From contig JACPAV010000003.1 of assembly GCA_016180645.1 (NCBI GenBank), forward strand, positions 62,001 through 126,000: a stretch of DNA of 64,000 nt, read 5' to 3'. Both the position numbers and the translations under genes were made by a program. The notes below the pieces were generated by a model, which was not told where the DNA came from, did no database searches, and was given only the letters and a program-made list of their open reading frames with translations. Positions within the stretch are counted from its first letter, which is position 1. Each line of letters opens with the position of its first letter. The DNA is from Nitrospirota bacterium (GTDB lineage Bacteria; JACPQY01). Below are positions 29,764-58,142 of the stretch, piece by piece.

Positions 29764-32322
29764 ATGCGCCTCCCGTTCATCTCCTCCATGTCACGACCTA
29801 CGGCTTGCGGCTTACGGCTCACGACTCACGGCTCACGACTCACGATTTACGGCTTGCTACTCACTCTCACAACGTTTTCCTGCGGTGCCACCTCCTACCT
29901 TTGGTACCGCTTGGCCCCCGACTACCCGCGAGACCGATCCGAAACCCTGGCCATCGAAGGACTATCCGACCCGGTGGAAATCTATCTCGACGCCTATGGC
30001 ATCCCCCATATTGAAGCGAAGAACGAGCCGGACCTTGTCCGGGCCACCGGCTTCATGCAGGCGCGGAATCGGTTCTTCCAAATGGACGTGCTGCGCCGAA
30101 TCGCCCGAGGCCGGCTCTCGGAACTCGTGGGCGAACAGAAACTCTTTTCCGGGACCACCGTTGAATTCGATCGCACCATGCGAAGCTGGGGCCTCGAAGA
30201 GGCGGCCCTCGCCGAAAACGGTACCATGACCCCCGAGACGAAGGCGATTCTGGAAGTGTTTGCACAAGGCGTGAACGCAGGACTGAAACGCCATCCCCCC
30301 ATCGAGTACCGCATGCTCCGTGTAGAACCGGAACCCTGGACCACGGTCGACTCCCTCGCACTCGGCTATTTCAACGGGTGGACCGTTTCACACAACTGGC
30401 ACCAGGAAACATCGAGGCTCCTCCTGGCCCTTCACGGCGGCATCGATCGGGCGGAGAAGATCTACGGATCTTCACCCTGGAGCAGCGGATACTCGCTCCC
30501 CACCTCCGGTCCACCGCGTCCACTTCCCCCGGCCATCGTGGATGGGGTTCGTCAGATCTTTCCATCCCGCCCGTTTTCATCCCATGGACATGCGCCAGAG
30601 CATGCCGCAAACAGGTTCGATCTGTCCACCGTTTTCCCCTCCGCCGCAAGCAACTCCTGGGTTGTTTCCGGCAATCGGTCCTTTTCCGGCAAACCCATCG
30701 TGGCCAATGACCCCCATCTCGTTCACCTCCTCCCCTCCATTCTGTTTCAGCAGCACCTCACGTGCCCGGGGCTGGATGTCATCGGCGCAACGCTCCCTGG
30801 AGTTCCGTACGTGCTCACCGGACACAATCGGAACGTCGCCTGGGGAACGACATCTTCAGTGGCGGATGTGATCGATCTCTACATCGAGCGCACGGTGCCG
30901 GGCGACCCCGCGCAAGTGGAGGGGCCGGCCGGCAATTATGCGTTGACCCGGCAGGACATCGACATTCGAGTTCGCCGGGGGTCGAAACTGGAATCACGTC
31001 GATTCATCCTGCGGAAAACACGCAACGGCCCCCTCCTGAATGACGTGTATCCGGGTCTCCTGCCCGAGTGGGCTCCTCCGGTATCCATCCACTGGGACCT
31101 TTCCGGCACCTCCGCGGGGCTGGATGCCCTCCGGGGGGCCAATCGGGCAACCACGGTGGCAGACCTTTATGCCGCCCTCCTGGGGTTCCCGTCGCCCCCT
31201 CAGGCTTGGAGCACCGCGGACCGCGAAGGCCGGATTGCCTTTTTCACGACGGGACGAATTCCCATCCGGCCCCACCACTTGGGCACTTTCCCCGTGCCGG
31301 GCTGGACCGATCGCTATTCATCGTCGGGCGCCCTCAGCGGTGAGTCGATGCCGTTCGGCATGGATTCACCCGAAGGCTTCTTCGCGCACGGCAACAACCT
31401 CGTTCAAGATCCGCTGCGCACGGATGGCTTCCTTCAAATCGACAGCGCCCCATCTTATCGCGCTGAGCGGATCTCGGAGTTGATTCGGCAAACGCCACGG
31501 CACGACCGAGCTTCCTTTGCCGCCATTCATTCGGACGTCTACCTTATACGGGCCAAGCGGCTTCTTCCCCACTTTCTTGCCGACCTCGATGCGCTCCGTG
31601 GAGAGAGCACGATGGCAACCGCCGCTGTGGATCTTCTTCATCAATGGGACCTCCGGGCAACCACCGATTCGTCCGCCACCACCATTTTCTTCGTGACCTA
31701 CCGCGAGGCCATCATCGAAGCGCTTGGCGACGAGGTGGACGAGCGCGGGCTGGAGTTCATCCTCTCCCAACGCTATTCCACCAATGTCACCGATGAATGG
31801 GTCGAAAATCCCGACCACGTGGTGTGGGACCACCGCGGCACTCCTAAGATCGAACACAGGGCCGAGGTAATCCGTGCCGCATTCCGCCGCGCGCTGCTCG
31901 ATCTTTCCAGGAGCCAGGGAAGGGACCCGGCGACATGGCGATGGGGTCGCCTCCACGATCTCAACACCAAACATCTTTTTGGATCGAAAAGACTTCTTGC
32001 CGGTTTCTTCAACCTTCCCCGCGAGGAAGCTCCCGGCGCCCTCGATTCCGTCTGGAAAGCCCATTTCGACCTGGGCCAACCTGAGACTCCGTTCCGAGAC
32101 ATGGCCGGCCCGGCCTATCGAATGATCGTCGATCTCGCGGACATGGACCATGCGTCATGGGTAGTGGACACGGGCGCTTCCGGCTGGCCCGGCTCGCCCC
32201 ATTATGGCGACCAACGGCCCCGCTGGCTCAAGGGGGAGTACCTCCCCATGATGGCGAACTGGGTGGAGATCCGATCCTCCGCCACCGCCAGGCTCAGCTT
32301 GCGGCCCGGCGACTCCCGATGA
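29764..32322 (+). CDS. Penicillin-acylase-family N-terminal nucleophile amidase
   Basis: The 852-residue precursor is in the family size range. After an N-terminal hydrophobic segment come 'DPVEIYLDAYGIPHIEAKNE', 'RNRFFQMDVLRR' and the alpha-chain, a linker, and the autocleavage point before Ser296 in S-N-S-W (residues 296-299), the counterpart of the S-N-x-W nucleophile of penicillin G acylase. The Asn of 'HNRNVAWG' follows. It hydrolyses N-acyl amide bonds in the periplasm; substrates of relatives include N-acyl homoserine lactones and lipid amides. The signal segment is encoded by a 7-nt degenerate tandem repeat. ATGs at 29764 and 29788 are both possible. Confidence 0.85.
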   Translation: MRLPFISSMSRPTACGLRLTTHGSRLTIYGLLLTLTTFSCGATSYLWYRLAPDYPRDRSETLAIEGLSDPVEIYLDAYGIPHIEAKNEPDLVRATGFMQARNRFFQMDVLRRIARGRLSELVGEQKLFSGTTVEFDRTMRSWGLEEAALAENGTMTPETKAILEVFAQGVNAGLKRHPPIEYRMLRVEPEPWTTVDSLALGYFNGWTVSHNWHQETSRLLLALHGGIDRAEKIYGSSPWSSGYSLPTSGPPRPLPPAIVDGVRQIFPSRPFSSHGHAPEHAANRFDLSTVFPSAASNSWVVSGNRSFSGKPIVANDPHLVHLLPSILFQQHLTCPGLDVIGATLPGVPYVLTGHNRNVAWGTTSSVADVIDLYIERTVPGDPAQVEGPAGNYALTRQDIDIRVRRGSKLESRRFILRKTRNGPLLNDVYPGLLPEWAPPVSIHWDLSGTSAGLDALRGANRATTVADLYAALLGFPSPPQAWSTADREGRIAFFTTGRIPIRPHHLGTFPVPGWTDRYSSSGALSGESMPFGMDSPEGFFAHGNNLVQDPLRTDGFLQIDSAPSYRAERISELIRQTPRHDRASFAAIHSDVYLIRAKRLLPHFLADLDALRGESTMATAAVDLLHQWDLRATTDSSATTIFFVTYREAIIEALGDEVDERGLEFILSQRYSTNVTDEWVENPDHVVWDHRGTPKIEHRAEVIRAAFRRALLDLSRSQGRDPATWRWGRLHDLNTKHLFGSKRLLAGFFNLPREEAPGALDSVWKAHFDLGQPETPFRDMAGPAYRMIVDLADMDHASWVVDTGASGWPGSPHYGDQRPRWLKGEYLPMMANWVEIRSSATARLSLRPGDSR
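29793..29862. repeat. Degenerate heptanucleotide tandem repeat inside the amidase signal region
   Basis: About ten units follow the pattern acgRctY (acgacct, acggctt, gcggctt, acggctc, acgactc, acggctc, acgactc, acgattt, acggctt, gctactc). The unit length, 7, is not a multiple of 3, so gain or loss of one unit would shift the amidase reading frame unless compensated. The repeat lies directly after the first start codons. Confidence 0.8.
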
Positions 32323-33119
32323 GTTCTCCCGAGTCGTTCTTTGTCCCGCAAGGGCCGCGATTCGTCGCCACGGAACTCACCCGCGGGCCGTGGAGCCCCG
32401 ATCACCAACACGGGGGACCGAGCTCGGCACTACTCGCGCGCGCGATCGAGAGGCTGCCGTCGGATGGTCCAGTCTTCCAAGTAGCCCGCATGACGGTCGA
32501 GTTTCTGCGTCCGATTCCCATAGCCGAATTCGAGCTCCGGACGGAAATCGTCCGCTCAGGGAAGAAGACCCGAATCGTCACGGCTTGGCTGGAAACGAGC
32601 GGCAAGCGCATCGTCCAGGCCACGGGACTCTGCATCCGGCGGGCTGACGTCCCCGTGCCTGCCGTGCCCGTGCCGGCCGTGGAGCCTCCCATTCCGTCGC
32701 CCGAAGAATCCGCCGTGTTCCAATTCCCGTTCTTCATGGATTCCGTTGGATATCACACCGCGATGGAAGGACGACTCGCGCGCGGGGTCTATGGTCAGGG
32801 CCCCACCAGTATGTGGATGCGGATGCGAGTCCCGGTGGTCCCGGGAGAAACGCCGTCTCCCGTTCAGCGCGTCATGGCCGCAGCTGATTCCGGCAATGGC
32901 GTGAGCGTGGTGCTGGATGTCTTCAAATACACCTTCATCAATCCGGATCTGACCGTCTATCTTCATCGGCCCATGGAGGGCGAGTGGGTTTGTCTGGATG
33001 CCGCCACCATCCCCGAGTCCAAAGGCGTCGGCCTCGCCGATACGCGCCTGCACGACTCCCGCGGCCCCATCGGCCGCTCCGTCCAGAGCCTCATCCTTGA
33101 GCGGCGGCCAGGCGGATGA
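32319..33119 (+). CDS. Acyl-CoA thioesterase-like protein (TesB/4HBT_3 double hot-dog)
   Basis: The ATG overlaps the amidase stop (ATGA). The 266-residue product has the double hot-dog layout of TesB-like thioesterases: 'GGPSSALLARAIERL' in the first hot-dog and 'DSGNGVSVVLDVFKYTFINPDLTVYLHR' region in the second, ending in 'VGLADTRLHDSRGPIGRSVQ'. It would release fatty acids from CoA esters in the cytoplasm and is the last gene of the operon begun by the S1P-lyase homologue. A 24-nt stretch from its 3' end recurs at 33852. Confidence 0.85.
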   Translation: MSSPESFFVPQGPRFVATELTRGPWSPDHQHGGPSSALLARAIERLPSDGPVFQVARMTVEFLRPIPIAEFELRTEIVRSGKKTRIVTAWLETSGKRIVQATGLCIRRADVPVPAVPVPAVEPPIPSPEESAVFQFPFFMDSVGYHTAMEGRLARGVYGQGPTSMWMRMRVPVVPGETPSPVQRVMAAADSGNGVSVVLDVFKYTFINPDLTVYLHRPMEGEWVCLDAATIPESKGVGLADTRLHDSRGPIGRSVQSLILERRPGG

Positions 33120-33221
33120 AATCGTCAGGTGTCTCTCAGTCCTGATTCCCCGCCAGTGCGAAGTCGTGCCGCTGTACACCTACCCGCGAAAAAATGTACA
33201 ATTGACTGCAAAGGAGGACCA

Positions 33222-33434
33222 TTGGAGCCAAAAGCGGAGGATCCACTAGATCTGACTTCTGTCTTGCGTGAGGAGCACAGTGGCAAATGGGTCGCTCTGA
33301 CGCGCGACTACTCGCGTGTTGTTGCATCAGGAGAAAGCATGGCCGAGGTTTCTCACAAGGCTGAAGGCCAGGATTTCGTGATGATGCTGGTACCGGACTT
33401 TGACCGCGCCTTCGCACCTCAATCTCAAGTTTAG
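33222..33434 (+). CDS. DUF5678 domain small protein
   Basis: A TTG at 33222 with AAGGAGG five bases upstream is preferred over an in-frame start at 33129, which has no such site. The 70-residue product has the DUF5678 pattern: 'HSGKWVALTRDYSRVVASGES' region, then a charged helix and a hydrophobic 'FVMMLVP' strand. Its 3' end overlaps the next gene by 35 nt. The pairing of a small DUF5678 protein with a retropepsin-like protein resembles a toxin-antitoxin layout, but no activity is known. Confidence 0.75.
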   Translation: MEPKAEDPLDLTSVLREEHSGKWVALTRDYSRVVASGESMAEVSHKAEGQDFVMMLVPDFDRAFAPQSQV

Positions 33435-33846
33435 GTACTGCAAAGTACCGTGCAACCCGTCCAAAGCGCACCCCACGAGGACATTTATTTGGATGCCGCT
33501 GGTCGAGATCAAGCTTCGTAGGGGCAAGCTCCAAACGGCACCATTCAGGGCACTCGTGGATACAGGCGCAGACTACTGCCTTTTTCCCACCGATGCGGCG
33601 GTCGCTATTGGAATTGATCCTGTGGAGAACGAACGGGAGGTGCCCATCGGCGGAATTGCCGGCCAAGTAAAGGCCAATTTCCACTCCGCGAGCATCGTGC
33701 TGGGCGGCCATGAGATTCCGTGTGACGTCGGATTCGCCCAGCAGCCGTTCAATACATGTTTGCTCGGCCGCGAGGGTTTTCTGAACAATTTCGCAGTGAC
33801 CTTCGACGCCATCAGAAACGAAATCACTTTCAAGTCCAGAAGCTGA
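33400..33846 (+). CDS. Retropepsin-like aspartic protease (clan AA)
   Basis: The 148-residue protein contains the retroviral-type aspartic protease motif ALVDTGADYCLFP (about residues 49-61; Asp-Thr-Gly catalytic), a flap-like 'IGGIAGQ', and a late 'CLLGREGFLNNFAVTFD' replacing the usual I-L-G-R-D strand. Such proteases act as homodimers. The TTG start at 33400 lies inside the DUF5678 gene. It forms a two-gene unit with that protein, which may be its substrate or regulator (inference). Confidence 0.8.
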   Translation: MTAPSHLNLKFRYCKVPCNPSKAHPTRTFIWMPLVEIKLRRGKLQTAPFRALVDTGADYCLFPTDAAVAIGIDPVENEREVPIGGIAGQVKANFHSASIVLGGHEIPCDVGFAQQPFNTCLLGREGFLNNFAVTFDAIRNEITFKSRS

Positions 33847-33848
33847 CG

Positions 33849-33890
33849 AATGGCCCCATCGGCCGCTCGGTCCAACGTTCAGGATCGTTG
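33849..33890 (+). pseudogene. Remnant of a thioesterase 3' end
   Basis: 24 nt starting at 33852 (GGCCCCATCGGCCGCTCG...) encode GPIGRSVQ, the same peptide as the 3' end of the thioesterase at 32319-33119 (33063-33086), with two synonymous differences. Similarity fades after that. It starts right behind the retropepsin stop. The likely meaning is that the DUF5678/retropepsin module sits between an intact and a decayed homologue of the same gene end. Confidence 0.6.
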
Positions 33891-55741: not shown

Positions 55742-56218
55742 ATGCTCCGATATCACTTCAGACTCCTCTGGGTTTACCTGGTCTATCGGTTCCGGCCGAA
55801 CCGGTCGGCGGTCACCCGGTACTCAGCGAAGGTTCGCTATCGGGACTGCGACATCAACGGCCACATGAACAACGCAGTCTACCTTTTCTACCTGGACGAG
55901 GCGCGCTTCGACCACTTCTTCCGCTCCGGACTTTTTCACCGGCTTCGCGAAGTGAAAGCGAGGCCCGTCGTGGGCCGCGTCGATATCTCCTACCGCCGCG
56001 AACTCCGCCCGCGGCAGCGTTTCACCATCGAGTCCTTCACCGAATCGATCGAAGGAAAACTGGTCTACGTGCGCCACAACTTCTACGTCGGCGCCACCCT
56101 CCACGCCTCCGCCAACGCCGGCCAACTCATCCTCCAGAACGGCAAAGTCATCGACCCCTCGTTCCTCACCGACATGATCCATCATCCCCAGTTGACACCC
56201 GCCGCCCTCTCTAAATAA
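55742..56218 (+). CDS. 4HBT-family thioesterase (THEM6-like)
   Basis: The ATG at 55742 gives a 158-residue hot-dog protein. An N-terminal hydrophobic stretch is followed by 'VRYRDCDINGHMNNAVYLFY', where Asp and the N-H-M-N-N block form the 4HBT active site, then 'RPVVGRVDISYRRELRPRQRF' and a C-terminal 'DMIHHP'. It probably hydrolyses acyl-CoA or acyl-carrier thioesters. Its C-terminal third recurs as a diverged fragment at 57957-58142. Confidence 0.88.
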   Translation: MLRYHFRLLWVYLVYRFRPNRSAVTRYSAKVRYRDCDINGHMNNAVYLFYLDEARFDHFFRSGLFHRLREVKARPVVGRVDISYRRELRPRQRFTIESFTESIEGKLVYVRHNFYVGATLHASANAGQLILQNGKVIDPSFLTDMIHHPQLTPAALSK

Positions 56219-56219
56219 C

Positions 56220-56266
56220 CGGTGACAGTATACTCTAATTGGTCGTAATAGAGTATACTGTCACCG
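56220..56266. repeat. 17-bp perfect inverted repeat after thioesterase gene
   Basis: CGGTGACAGTATACTCT (56220-56236) and its exact complement (56250-56266) enclose a 13-nt loop. It begins 1 nt after the stop codon. The stem is long for a terminator and has no T-tract; it may be a recombination or transposition footprint. Confidence 0.7.
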
Positions 56267-56342
56267 AATATACTTGGTCGAATGTCTTGCTCATAAGGGA
56301 TGAAGGGCATCAAAGATGACCACGGAGCCTCCGACGCTAAGT

Positions 56343-56600
56343 TCAGGCGGCTCTGACGAAAGTGAAAACCGGCTTGGGCTTGGCTCCCCCACGGACCCTC
56401 ACGACGGCGACTTTCCCCTGCTTGCGGCGTTCTCTCAGGATGCGTTGGTTGATTTCGTAGAGGAGCTTGTCGTCCTCCGGCAGGAAAACCAGGTCGGCAG
56501 CGGGTGGGATCTTGTCGAGCACTTCAGGATGGGCAAAGGCGAACAAGAGGAACTCGCGCAAGAGATCAAGATTTTTCCCAACGACTTCATCCTCTCTCAT
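56343..56600 (-). CDS. DUF5647-like small protein
   Basis: The ATG at 56600, preceded by GGGGGAG at good spacing, gives an 85-residue product with 'KNLDLLREFLLFAFAHPEVL' and 'IPPAADLVFLPEDDKLLYEINQRIL', the pattern of DUF5647. An upstream in-frame start at 56717 lacks such a site. The family often sits beside toxin-antitoxin genes. Function unknown. Confidence 0.65.
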   Translation of the reverse strand: MREDEVVGKNLDLLREFLLFAFAHPEVLDKIPPAADLVFLPEDDKLLYEINQRILRERRKQGKVAVVRVRGGAKPKPVFTFVRAA

Positions 56601-56768
56601 CGAGTCATCTCCCCCTCGTATCCGTTCCGGTGCCCTCGCCATGATGTCTTCATATCCTGTGTAACAGATAGGTATGCGATTGTGAAGTCTGTAGGGGTAC
56701 ATGCCATCGCTTGACACGCGCCGTCCTCTCTGCGTGAATCATTTTGTTTTGTGGTACTCTGACTCGGA

Positions 56769-57185
56769 ATGATTTTCGCGCAGGTCGTTACGAGAGTGAT
56801 CCGGGAGAAGCCTGTAGCGAAGGTTCTGACGAAGCTACACCGATCAACAGCCGCAGGCGGACTTCTCCAAGTGCCCTACCTCATCCCCTATGATTATTTC
56901 TTGGCCGACATGCCGGCGCTCCTGAGGGACCGTGACCAAGCACCCATCCTACAATTTCACCGCGTCTGGACGCTTGACCAACGTTGCCGATTGCAATACG
57001 CGAAGGACCCGTTTTTCTTTTCCGGGCAGCCGGATTTTTCGCAGATGCTGTGGAGCGAACCCCGTTCGTTCCCCATCACGTACACACGACCCGGAGAAGG
57101 CAGTTTTGAGGTGCAATACCCTCCCGCGATCGTGGATGCTTGCGAGTTCTGCCTCCCGGAATATAATCATTATCGAGATCAATAA
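56769..57185 (+). CDS. Unknown 138-residue protein
   Basis: Cytoplasmic, with no signal peptide and an aromatic-rich centre ('VPYLIPYDYFLADMPALL', 'QFHRVWTLDQRCRLQYAKD'). I do not recognise it. The stop is 2 nt before the start of the putative antitoxin gene, so it heads a three-gene unit with the PIN toxin. Confidence 0.5.
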   Translation: MIFAQVVTRVIREKPVAKVLTKLHRSTAAGGLLQVPYLIPYDYFLADMPALLRDRDQAPILQFHRVWTLDQRCRLQYAKDPFFFSGQPDFSQMLWSEPRSFPITYTRPGEGSFEVQYPPAIVDACEFCLPEYNHYRDQ

Positions 57186-57187
57186 CG

Positions 57188-57421
57188 ATGGCGGCTGTAC
57201 GCGAGGTCAACGAAGTCGAGCAATTCAAGTTCCGGTTCCCGAAGGAAAAGAAAGTCACCCGACGGCGGGCCGAGGAATTGCGCAAGCTCTACCTGGTGAA
57301 GGGACCGCAGCAACGCTTTCCGGGTCTCTCGCCGGTAGAGACCTTAAAGCGTTTGTCGGGTCTCTTTGAGTTGGGCGGCGATGCGGTACAGGACACGCTC
57401 AACTACGAAGAAAACCCGTAG
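57188..57421 (+). CDS. Putative antitoxin of PIN toxin
   Basis: The 77-residue basic product has an N-terminal helix with 'FRFPKEKKVTRRRAEELRKLY' and a C-terminal acidic tail ('LFELGGDAVQDTLNYEENP'), as expected for an antitoxin that wraps the toxin. No standard DNA-binding motif was recognised. It starts 2 nt after the previous gene and lies 11 nt before the PIN gene. Confidence 0.55.
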   Translation: MAAVREVNEVEQFKFRFPKEKKVTRRRAEELRKLYLVKGPQQRFPGLSPVETLKRLSGLFELGGDAVQDTLNYEENP

Positions 57422-57432
57422 CAAACCGTCTC

Positions 57433-57879
57433 ATGGCGGACGCTATTCTCGATACCAACATCCTGGTCGGGCTTCTCGTCAGGGACGACAGGCAACATCC
57501 CGAAGCCAGGCGGGTCATGAGCGCCTTGCCCCAAGATGCCACCCTCCTCTACTTGGACGTGGTGATGATGGAAGCGATAGGAGTTCTCCAGCGCAAGACG
57601 GAGAAGAAGCTTCAAGGTCGGCCCAAACAGGACCTGGCCGTGGCGATGGATCGGCAACTCAACGGCCTTGAAACGCAGGTTCCCACGGGTACGATTGTGC
57701 GTACGATGGCCGAGTGTGAACGGCGCTACGACGACATTGTTACCATGGTCAGGCATGAAGGCGTCCTCAATTTCGTGGACGCGTGGATCGCGATTTGGGC
57801 CCAGACGCACCAAGTGCTTTCAATCGTCAGCCTCGACCAGGATTTCGATCAGGTATCGTGGCTGACCCGGATTAAATAG
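57433..57879 (+). CDS. PIN-domain toxin (VapC-like)
   Basis: The 148-residue PIN protein has catalytic acidic residues in 'AILDTNILVGLL' (Asp near residue 7), Glu near 'VVMMEAIGVL', Asp in 'FVDAWIAIWA' and a late 'SLDQDFDQV'. It belongs to the VapC ribonuclease group. Confidence 0.85.
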   Translation: MADAILDTNILVGLLVRDDRQHPEARRVMSALPQDATLLYLDVVMMEAIGVLQRKTEKKLQGRPKQDLAVAMDRQLNGLETQVPTGTIVRTMAECERRYDDIVTMVRHEGVLNFVDAWIAIWAQTHQVLSIVSLDQDFDQVSWLTRIK

Positions 57880-57956
57880 GTCAGGCGACGCAATAACGGA
57901 TTTCTCAAGAGCGGGTGGGTGCGCCGCCCCCTGAGTGCGAATAAGGTGCACGGTCT

Positions 57957-58142
57957 ACGGTCGTCTCCCACGTTTCGGTCGGCGACACCCTCCACGCCTC
58001 CGCGAAAGCCGGCCAACTCATCCTTCGAAATGGAAAAGTCCTCGATCCCCTGTTCCTCAATGACATGATCCACCACCCCGATTCACTTGCCCGGGCCGAC
58101 TCGCTGAAGGGTCCTTCGTCCGGCACCAAGATCGTTCCGTAA
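57957..58142 (+). pseudogene. 3' fragment of a thioesterase related to the one at 55742
   Basis: 62 codons without a start, in which 'VGDTLHASAKAGQLILRNGK' and 'VLDPLFLNDMIHHP' follow the C-terminus of the intact gene at about 80% amino-acid identity over 34 residues, then differ to a TAA. The TA unit at 56343-57879 is thus bracketed by an intact and a truncated copy of the same gene end. Confidence 0.8.

Follow-up and report, generated by a model that had tools for sequence, protein, structure and literature searches.

Diverged copies of host gene ends beside toxin-antitoxin and defence modules of a Nitrospirota bacterium suggest entry by recombination with neighbouring genes

How small chromosomal toxin-antitoxin (TA) and defence modules move without transposases is a long-standing puzzle. 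The locus described here poses this question for a block of putative TA genes that is bounded on one side by an intact thioesterase gene and on the other by a diverged copy of the last third of that gene, an arrangement that calls for an explanation of how the block came to be there. The window under analysis has a length of 64,000 nt and corresponds to positions 62001-126000 of its contig, which belongs to a 4.7-Mb draft genome of 65 contigs (97% complete, 2.6% contamination) that was probably assembled from a metagenome.

The thioesterase gene, its 3'-end copy and the module between them

Alignment and Pfam searches confirm the central claim of the preliminary description of this locus, namely that a TA block is located between a full 4HBT thioesterase gene and a diverged copy of its last third (Table 1). 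Alignment of the two copies gives a 102-nt core in direct orientation (56087-56188 and 57978-58079, 84% identity), from which a gapped match extends back to ~56062/57943 with 80% identity over 127 nt. In a direct-repeat scan of the 332-kb contig, this pair ranks near the top among pairs that are isolated and non-paralogous. The reading frame is preserved in the copy, the encoded peptides being VGATLHASANAGQLILQNGKVIDPSFLTDMIHHP and VGDTLHASAKAGQLILRNGKVLDPLFLNDMIHHP, and past the 102-nt match the remnant continues for 20 more codons to its own stop at 58142. The direct repeats flanking the insert thus measure 102-165 nt, i.e., on the order of 100 bp. Because the changes between the two copies are mostly synonymous (NG86; Table 1), the remnant appears to have diverged inside a working gene and not to be a decayed target duplication.

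Table 1. Features of the focal locus and of the second locus at 32-34 kb (positions in the window).
Feature	Position	Strand	Evidence
Acyl-CoA thioesterase, unrelated to the focal one	32319..33119	+	Pfam 4HBT_3 + 4HBT_3C
23-nt repeat, gene copy	33063..33085	+	Direct-repeat scan
DUF5678 protein and retropepsin-like aspartyl protease	33129..33846	+	Pfam DUF5678 E 3e-6, gag-asp_proteas E 1e-8
23-nt repeat, remnant copy	33852..33874	+	22/23 identical
4HBT thioesterase gene, complete, 3' end repeated	55742..56218	+	Pfam 4HBT_2 E 1.2e-17
Gene-side copy of the repeated 3' end, 102-nt core	56087..56188	+	84% identity to 57978-58079, 113 bits
REP-like palindrome, directly 3' of the thioesterase stop	56220..56266		Hairpin z -7.0; dozens of genomic copies
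DUF5647 protein	56343..56717	-	Pfam DUF5647 E 3.6e-15; dicodon model favours start at 56600
ORF of 138 aa, family unrecognised	56769..57185	+	No Pfam hit; low dicodon score
Putative antitoxin, 77 aa	57188..57421	+	Position before the PIN gene; no Pfam hit
Putative PIN-domain toxin	57433..57879	+	Pfam PIN PF01850 E 4e-12
Remnant of a thioesterase 3' end, diverged and in frame, to its own stop	57978..58142	+	dN 0.092, dS 0.569 vs gene

The last two genes of the module form a putative VapBC-like type II TA pair, as predicted from the PIN domain and the gene order only. The PIN protein is encoded by a single copy in the genome, and no homologues of it were found in a same-family genome or on plasmids. 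The 138-aa ORF that precedes the pair has a weak coding score and may be spurious. The REP-like palindrome behind the thioesterase gene has 18-bp arms and is dispersed genome-wide; the genome also contains seven Y1_Tnp transposase genes, one of which is found ~130 nt from a copy of the palindrome on contig C28. A role of this palindrome as the insertion agent is unsupported, as it is a dispersed repeat that is missing at the remnant and located beyond the stop codon, and it is probably a passenger.

The preliminary description had also reported the same arrangement at 32-34 kb, behind an unrelated thioesterase. The repeat at this second locus is real, and so is the lack of relationship between the two thioesterases, but the repeated sequence is far shorter than the focal one. 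Its two copies are 789 nt apart, the gene copy being located in the coding 3' end, ~34 nt before the stop codon. Since the genes enclosed encode a DUF5678 protein and an aspartyl protease, the label of TA cluster is not established there.

From the two loci it had been proposed that the 3' ends of thioesterase genes have a special role, with TA genes expected behind thioesterases in relatives. No consistent TA neighbour was observed in the one same-family ortholog and ten distant homologues compared: the ortholog (53% identity) has a different neighbourhood with no TA genes behind it, and a single locus among the distant homologues has a nucleotidyltransferase-like ORF nearby, as judged by eye. 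Targeting of thioesterases in particular is therefore not supported, the more so as the genes affected elsewhere in the genome are unrelated, and the link to thioesterases is regarded as a coincidence. These other targets include HsdS (twice), HsdM, HsdR, a helicase, LpxH, an acyltransferase, an alcohol dehydrogenase and a DUF499 ATPase, some of them named by reading of the sequence without Pfam.

Gene-end copies across the genome and the genes they enclose

The wider analysis covered 2.8 Mb of the genome and was based on dicodon-model gene calls and on direct repeats separated by 200-6000 nt. In a segment test, each of 1775 genes with a length of 450 nt or more was compared with the 5 kb on either side of it; partial matches that were isolated and scored 45 bits or more were sorted by the part of the gene that they touched. 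When run at a loose E of 0.02, this test returned mostly noise, with the last segment downstream already at the top, and the 45-bit version was used. Direct copies located downstream of their gene fell at its 3' end in 14 cases, internally in five and at its 5' start in three, while random placement predicts 1.1 at the 3' end; direct copies located upstream fell at the 5' start in seven cases, internally in ten and at the 3' end in three, with 0.9 predicted at the start. The excess over random placement is thus ~12-fold for 3'-end copies downstream and ~7-fold for 5'-start copies upstream. Among the inverted controls the facing gene end was touched in 1/7 and 0/7 cases, i.e., without excess, and the effect is therefore limited to outward copies of gene ends that have the same orientation as the gene. 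Some of the counted hits are of other kinds, namely the integrase/tRNA element on C28, a very local repeat on C19 and, at the 5' starts, paralogues or dispersed repeats; once these are set aside, the counts come closer to 11 and 4. The process is at work at gene starts too, more rarely than at 3' ends.

Three candidate cases were dropped, namely C28:5251, which is the integrase/tRNA element, C4:179044, in which the mismatches have no codon pattern, and C7:79635, in which the repeat is a member of a second dispersed palindromic family. This family (~97 nt, AGAGCGTCTAACAGAA...) is 85-99% alike across contigs and mostly intergenic, with sites at C6:47458, 52414 and 53480, C7:12979, 79635 and 80735, and C18:72841, 76917 and 81592. 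The same scan applied to 550 kb of E. coli K-12 found one terminal copy in 367 genes, compared with 4.3 expected at the rate of the present genome (P 0.07), and the density observed here can therefore not be called unusual. In that E. coli sequence, the last 84 nt of cynR (357791-358690) are repeated at 95% identity ~117 nt downstream, with no module between the copies.

Several loci illustrate the range of arrangements. At C15:24756-29923, two AAA-ATPase modules stand in series behind one HsdS gene, and each of them ends in a separate diverged remnant of the HsdS end. The three gene ends resemble one another at 87-90% and are about equally diverged, and their similarity ends at the stop codon, a pattern that would be expected if each module came with, or displaced, a different allele. 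A mirror case is found at C3:292560-295014, where an AbiEi/AbiEii pair separates a helicase gene from a copy, located upstream, of the gene's first 32 nt; the five differences between these copies are all at third codon positions. Similarly, at C10:77737-80282 a HEPN/MNT pair is flanked by an LpxH-like gene and, on the upstream side, by a 96% copy of the first 176 nt of this gene plus its leader. Nested repeats occur at C9:51172-56386, where an HSDR_N gene is found behind the end of an alcohol dehydrogenase gene and a BrnT/BrnA-like pair (by eye) is in turn enclosed by a 94-nt segment of the HSDR_N gene and its 91% identical copy. At C4:38030-42881, a LarA-like gene has a 98% copy of its 3' end, with an exact word of 99 nt, on the far side of a 3.3-kb stretch that contains a large lipoprotein gene; this is the youngest-looking case and the only one with clearly non-defence cargo.

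How the copies diverged was assessed in 20 gene-end alignments, which were hand-picked from the scans before codon positions were counted. Mismatches at codon positions 1, 2 and 3 numbered 74, 59 and 170 at near-equal numbers of sites (chi-square p ~1e-19), corresponding to mismatch rates of 28.7% at third positions vs 12.4% and 9.9% at the other two, with few frame-breaking gaps. Pooled NG86 estimates over nine loci (172 codons) gave a dN of 0.086 and a dS of 0.614. From the third-position excess and the resulting dN/dS of 0.14 it follows that the remnants diverged under purifying selection. On these sequence comparisons, the two copies look like two functional alleles, unlike what an unconstrained spare duplication would leave.

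The 36 ORFs enclosed between such copies were classified by Pfam, except for the 705-aa lipoprotein on C4, which was judged from its translation, and they were compared with 36 length-matched random genes, six of which were judged by eye. On a strict reading, 17/36 enclosed genes belong to TA or defence families vs 2/36 controls (p 1e-4), the families being PIN, RHH, HEPN, MNT nucleotidyltransferase, AbiEi/AbiEii, Fic, HSDR_N, AAA_21-type ATPases and DUF4276. At least one TA or defence gene is present in 11 of the 18 modules. Between the gene-end copies the modules are of foreign-like composition, with a lower GC3 (0.686 vs 0.726 in length-matched genes, p 0.009) and a lower coding score (p 0.001), while the target genes are native-looking. 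Of the 22 PIN genes in the genome, only about 3 are found in or at modules for which bounding remnants could be detected, and this is therefore one route of acquisition and not the sole one. The genome-wide geometry, the enrichment in TA and defence genes and the purifying selection on the remnants support the earlier proposal that one common process inserts TA modules and deposits a remnant of the gene end beyond them. That this scar is present at well over a dozen unrelated genes suggests that such defence genes gain entry through recombination with the end of the host gene next to them.

Possible routes of entry

Ordinary tandem duplication, which the preliminary description had itself named as the alternative to its reading, would imply that the thioesterase gene was once present twice, that both copies diverged under selection, and that the second lost its 5' part by TA insertion or deletion. 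True tandem paralogues are indeed present in the genome, and both the direct orientation and the purifying-selection divergence would be accounted for. However, terminal copies either span 2-26% of the gene or are tandem paralogues (one at 0.41, the others at 0.62-1.0), without the continuum that random erosion predicts, and the duplication would have to recur at many unrelated genes, each time leaving a short terminal piece and, in 11/18 modules, TA or defence genes. We therefore consider this explanation unlikely. Still less probable is site-specific integration at gene ends in which a trans-acting recombinase serves an element that brings its own substitute for the gene end, in the manner of prophage e14 at icd. 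Elements of this sort hold diverged in-frame gene ends that are kept under selection, and the genome contains one integrase/tRNA element of such a kind (C28:5251). However, the ORF list and Pfam reveal no integrase among the ORFs of the focal module, which leaves room for one in trans, and the targets, which share no sequence relationship and extend to gene starts, form a range that one recombinase could hardly serve.

The codon-position pattern speaks against insertion with a long target duplication (~100 bp), as described for restriction-modification systems, followed by decay of the spare copy. The length of ~100 bp and the direct orientation of the focal repeats match the published description (PMC3874152), but a spare copy should drift without codon bias, whereas the mismatches gather at third positions with few frame-breaking gaps; we regard this explanation as very unlikely. 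The least credible alternative is an artefact of metagenome assembly, in which alleles of two strains were joined. The draft is fragmented into 65 contigs, has 2.6% contamination and is probably metagenome-assembled, and the copies do resemble alleles. However, the longest exact word shared by the focal copies is 18 nt, and it is shorter than 30 nt in 17/20 alignments, below the k-mers usually employed in assembly; moreover, the scar is found at many loci and with a biased gene content.

The arrangement is most simply explained by recombination of an incoming allele with the resident one, the gene end serving as the anchor, and with moderate confidence we interpret the focal block as a TA/accessory module that was probably gained in this manner at the end of the neighbouring host gene. 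The incoming DNA would derive from a diverged relative, in which the module was located behind the end of the same gene. Pairing of the incoming gene end with the resident one would lead to integration, in which one allele completes the gene while the last ~100-165 nt of the other are displaced to the far side of the module. Either of the two copies may be the foreign one, and the origin of one allele from a donor is itself inferred. Two routes can be envisaged. Entry could occur by a single crossover of a circle, or of a partly degraded and recircularised fragment, as modelled for the tips of Rhs proteins; single-crossover entry of a circular intermediate yields exactly the product seen. Alternatively, entry could proceed by homology-facilitated illegitimate recombination (HFIR). 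When DNA with homology to the end of lacZ was transferred in E. coli, 56/60 aberrant integrants carried gene-end duplications, which measured 109-950 bp in the clones sequenced and were ascribed to a single crossover of recircularised molecules (PMC3240628). At the focal locus, resident DNA appears to have been duplicated rather than deleted.

Relation to known systems and significance

The arrangement resembles several described systems without coinciding with any of them. Displacement of the C-terminal tips of Rhs proteins has been proposed to occur by recombination of a circular intermediate (PMC2935791), and HFIR has been proposed for arrays of T6SS immunity genes (PMC5361080). As in these systems, a full gene is followed by displaced 3' fragments in direct orientation with accessory genes between them, and serial fragment arrays at one gene are found at the HsdS locus on C15, although not at the focal locus. 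In the Rhs and T6SS cases, however, the anchor is a polymorphic toxin gene with an exchangeable tip, whereas the anchors here are ordinary or defence genes whose two ends code for almost identical peptides, and the cargo forms a module independent of them. Restriction-modification systems are described as inserting with a long target duplication (Nobusato 2000 and Furuta 2010, as cited in PMC3874152). They share with the present modules the presence of TA-like selfish units without a transposase between direct repeats of ~100 bp, but the repeats here differ as coding alleles do (dN/dS ~0.14), which those of a fresh duplication would not. In HFIR, as here, one homologous end anchors DNA bearing unrelated genes (PMC3240628; PMC2884548), although HFIR proper usually deletes resident DNA, which in the present case appears to be kept and duplicated. 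Finally, a TA pair of Microcystis is located behind MaOC1 between 152-bp direct repeats (PMC7935541). Both are chromosomal TA pairs directly behind a gene and within direct repeats, but the Microcystis repeats are identical, begin 14 bp past the stop codon and hold inverted repeats, whereas those described here are diverged coding sequence.

A further reading, which we put forward tentatively and hold to be doubtful, is that TA and defence modules spread in this lineage as integrase-free cassettes, for which the end or start of the adjoining host gene serves as the homology address. A circle released by recombination between the two gene-end copies would then re-enter at the same gene in any relative. 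If this were true, the diverged gene-end remnant would be a general and searchable footprint of recombination-borne TA mobility. A remnant that has diverged as coding sequence can be read from a single genome, names the anchor of the recombination and can be counted anywhere. If the process is general, the share of TA acquisition that takes place via homologous recombination at gene ends would thus become measurable.
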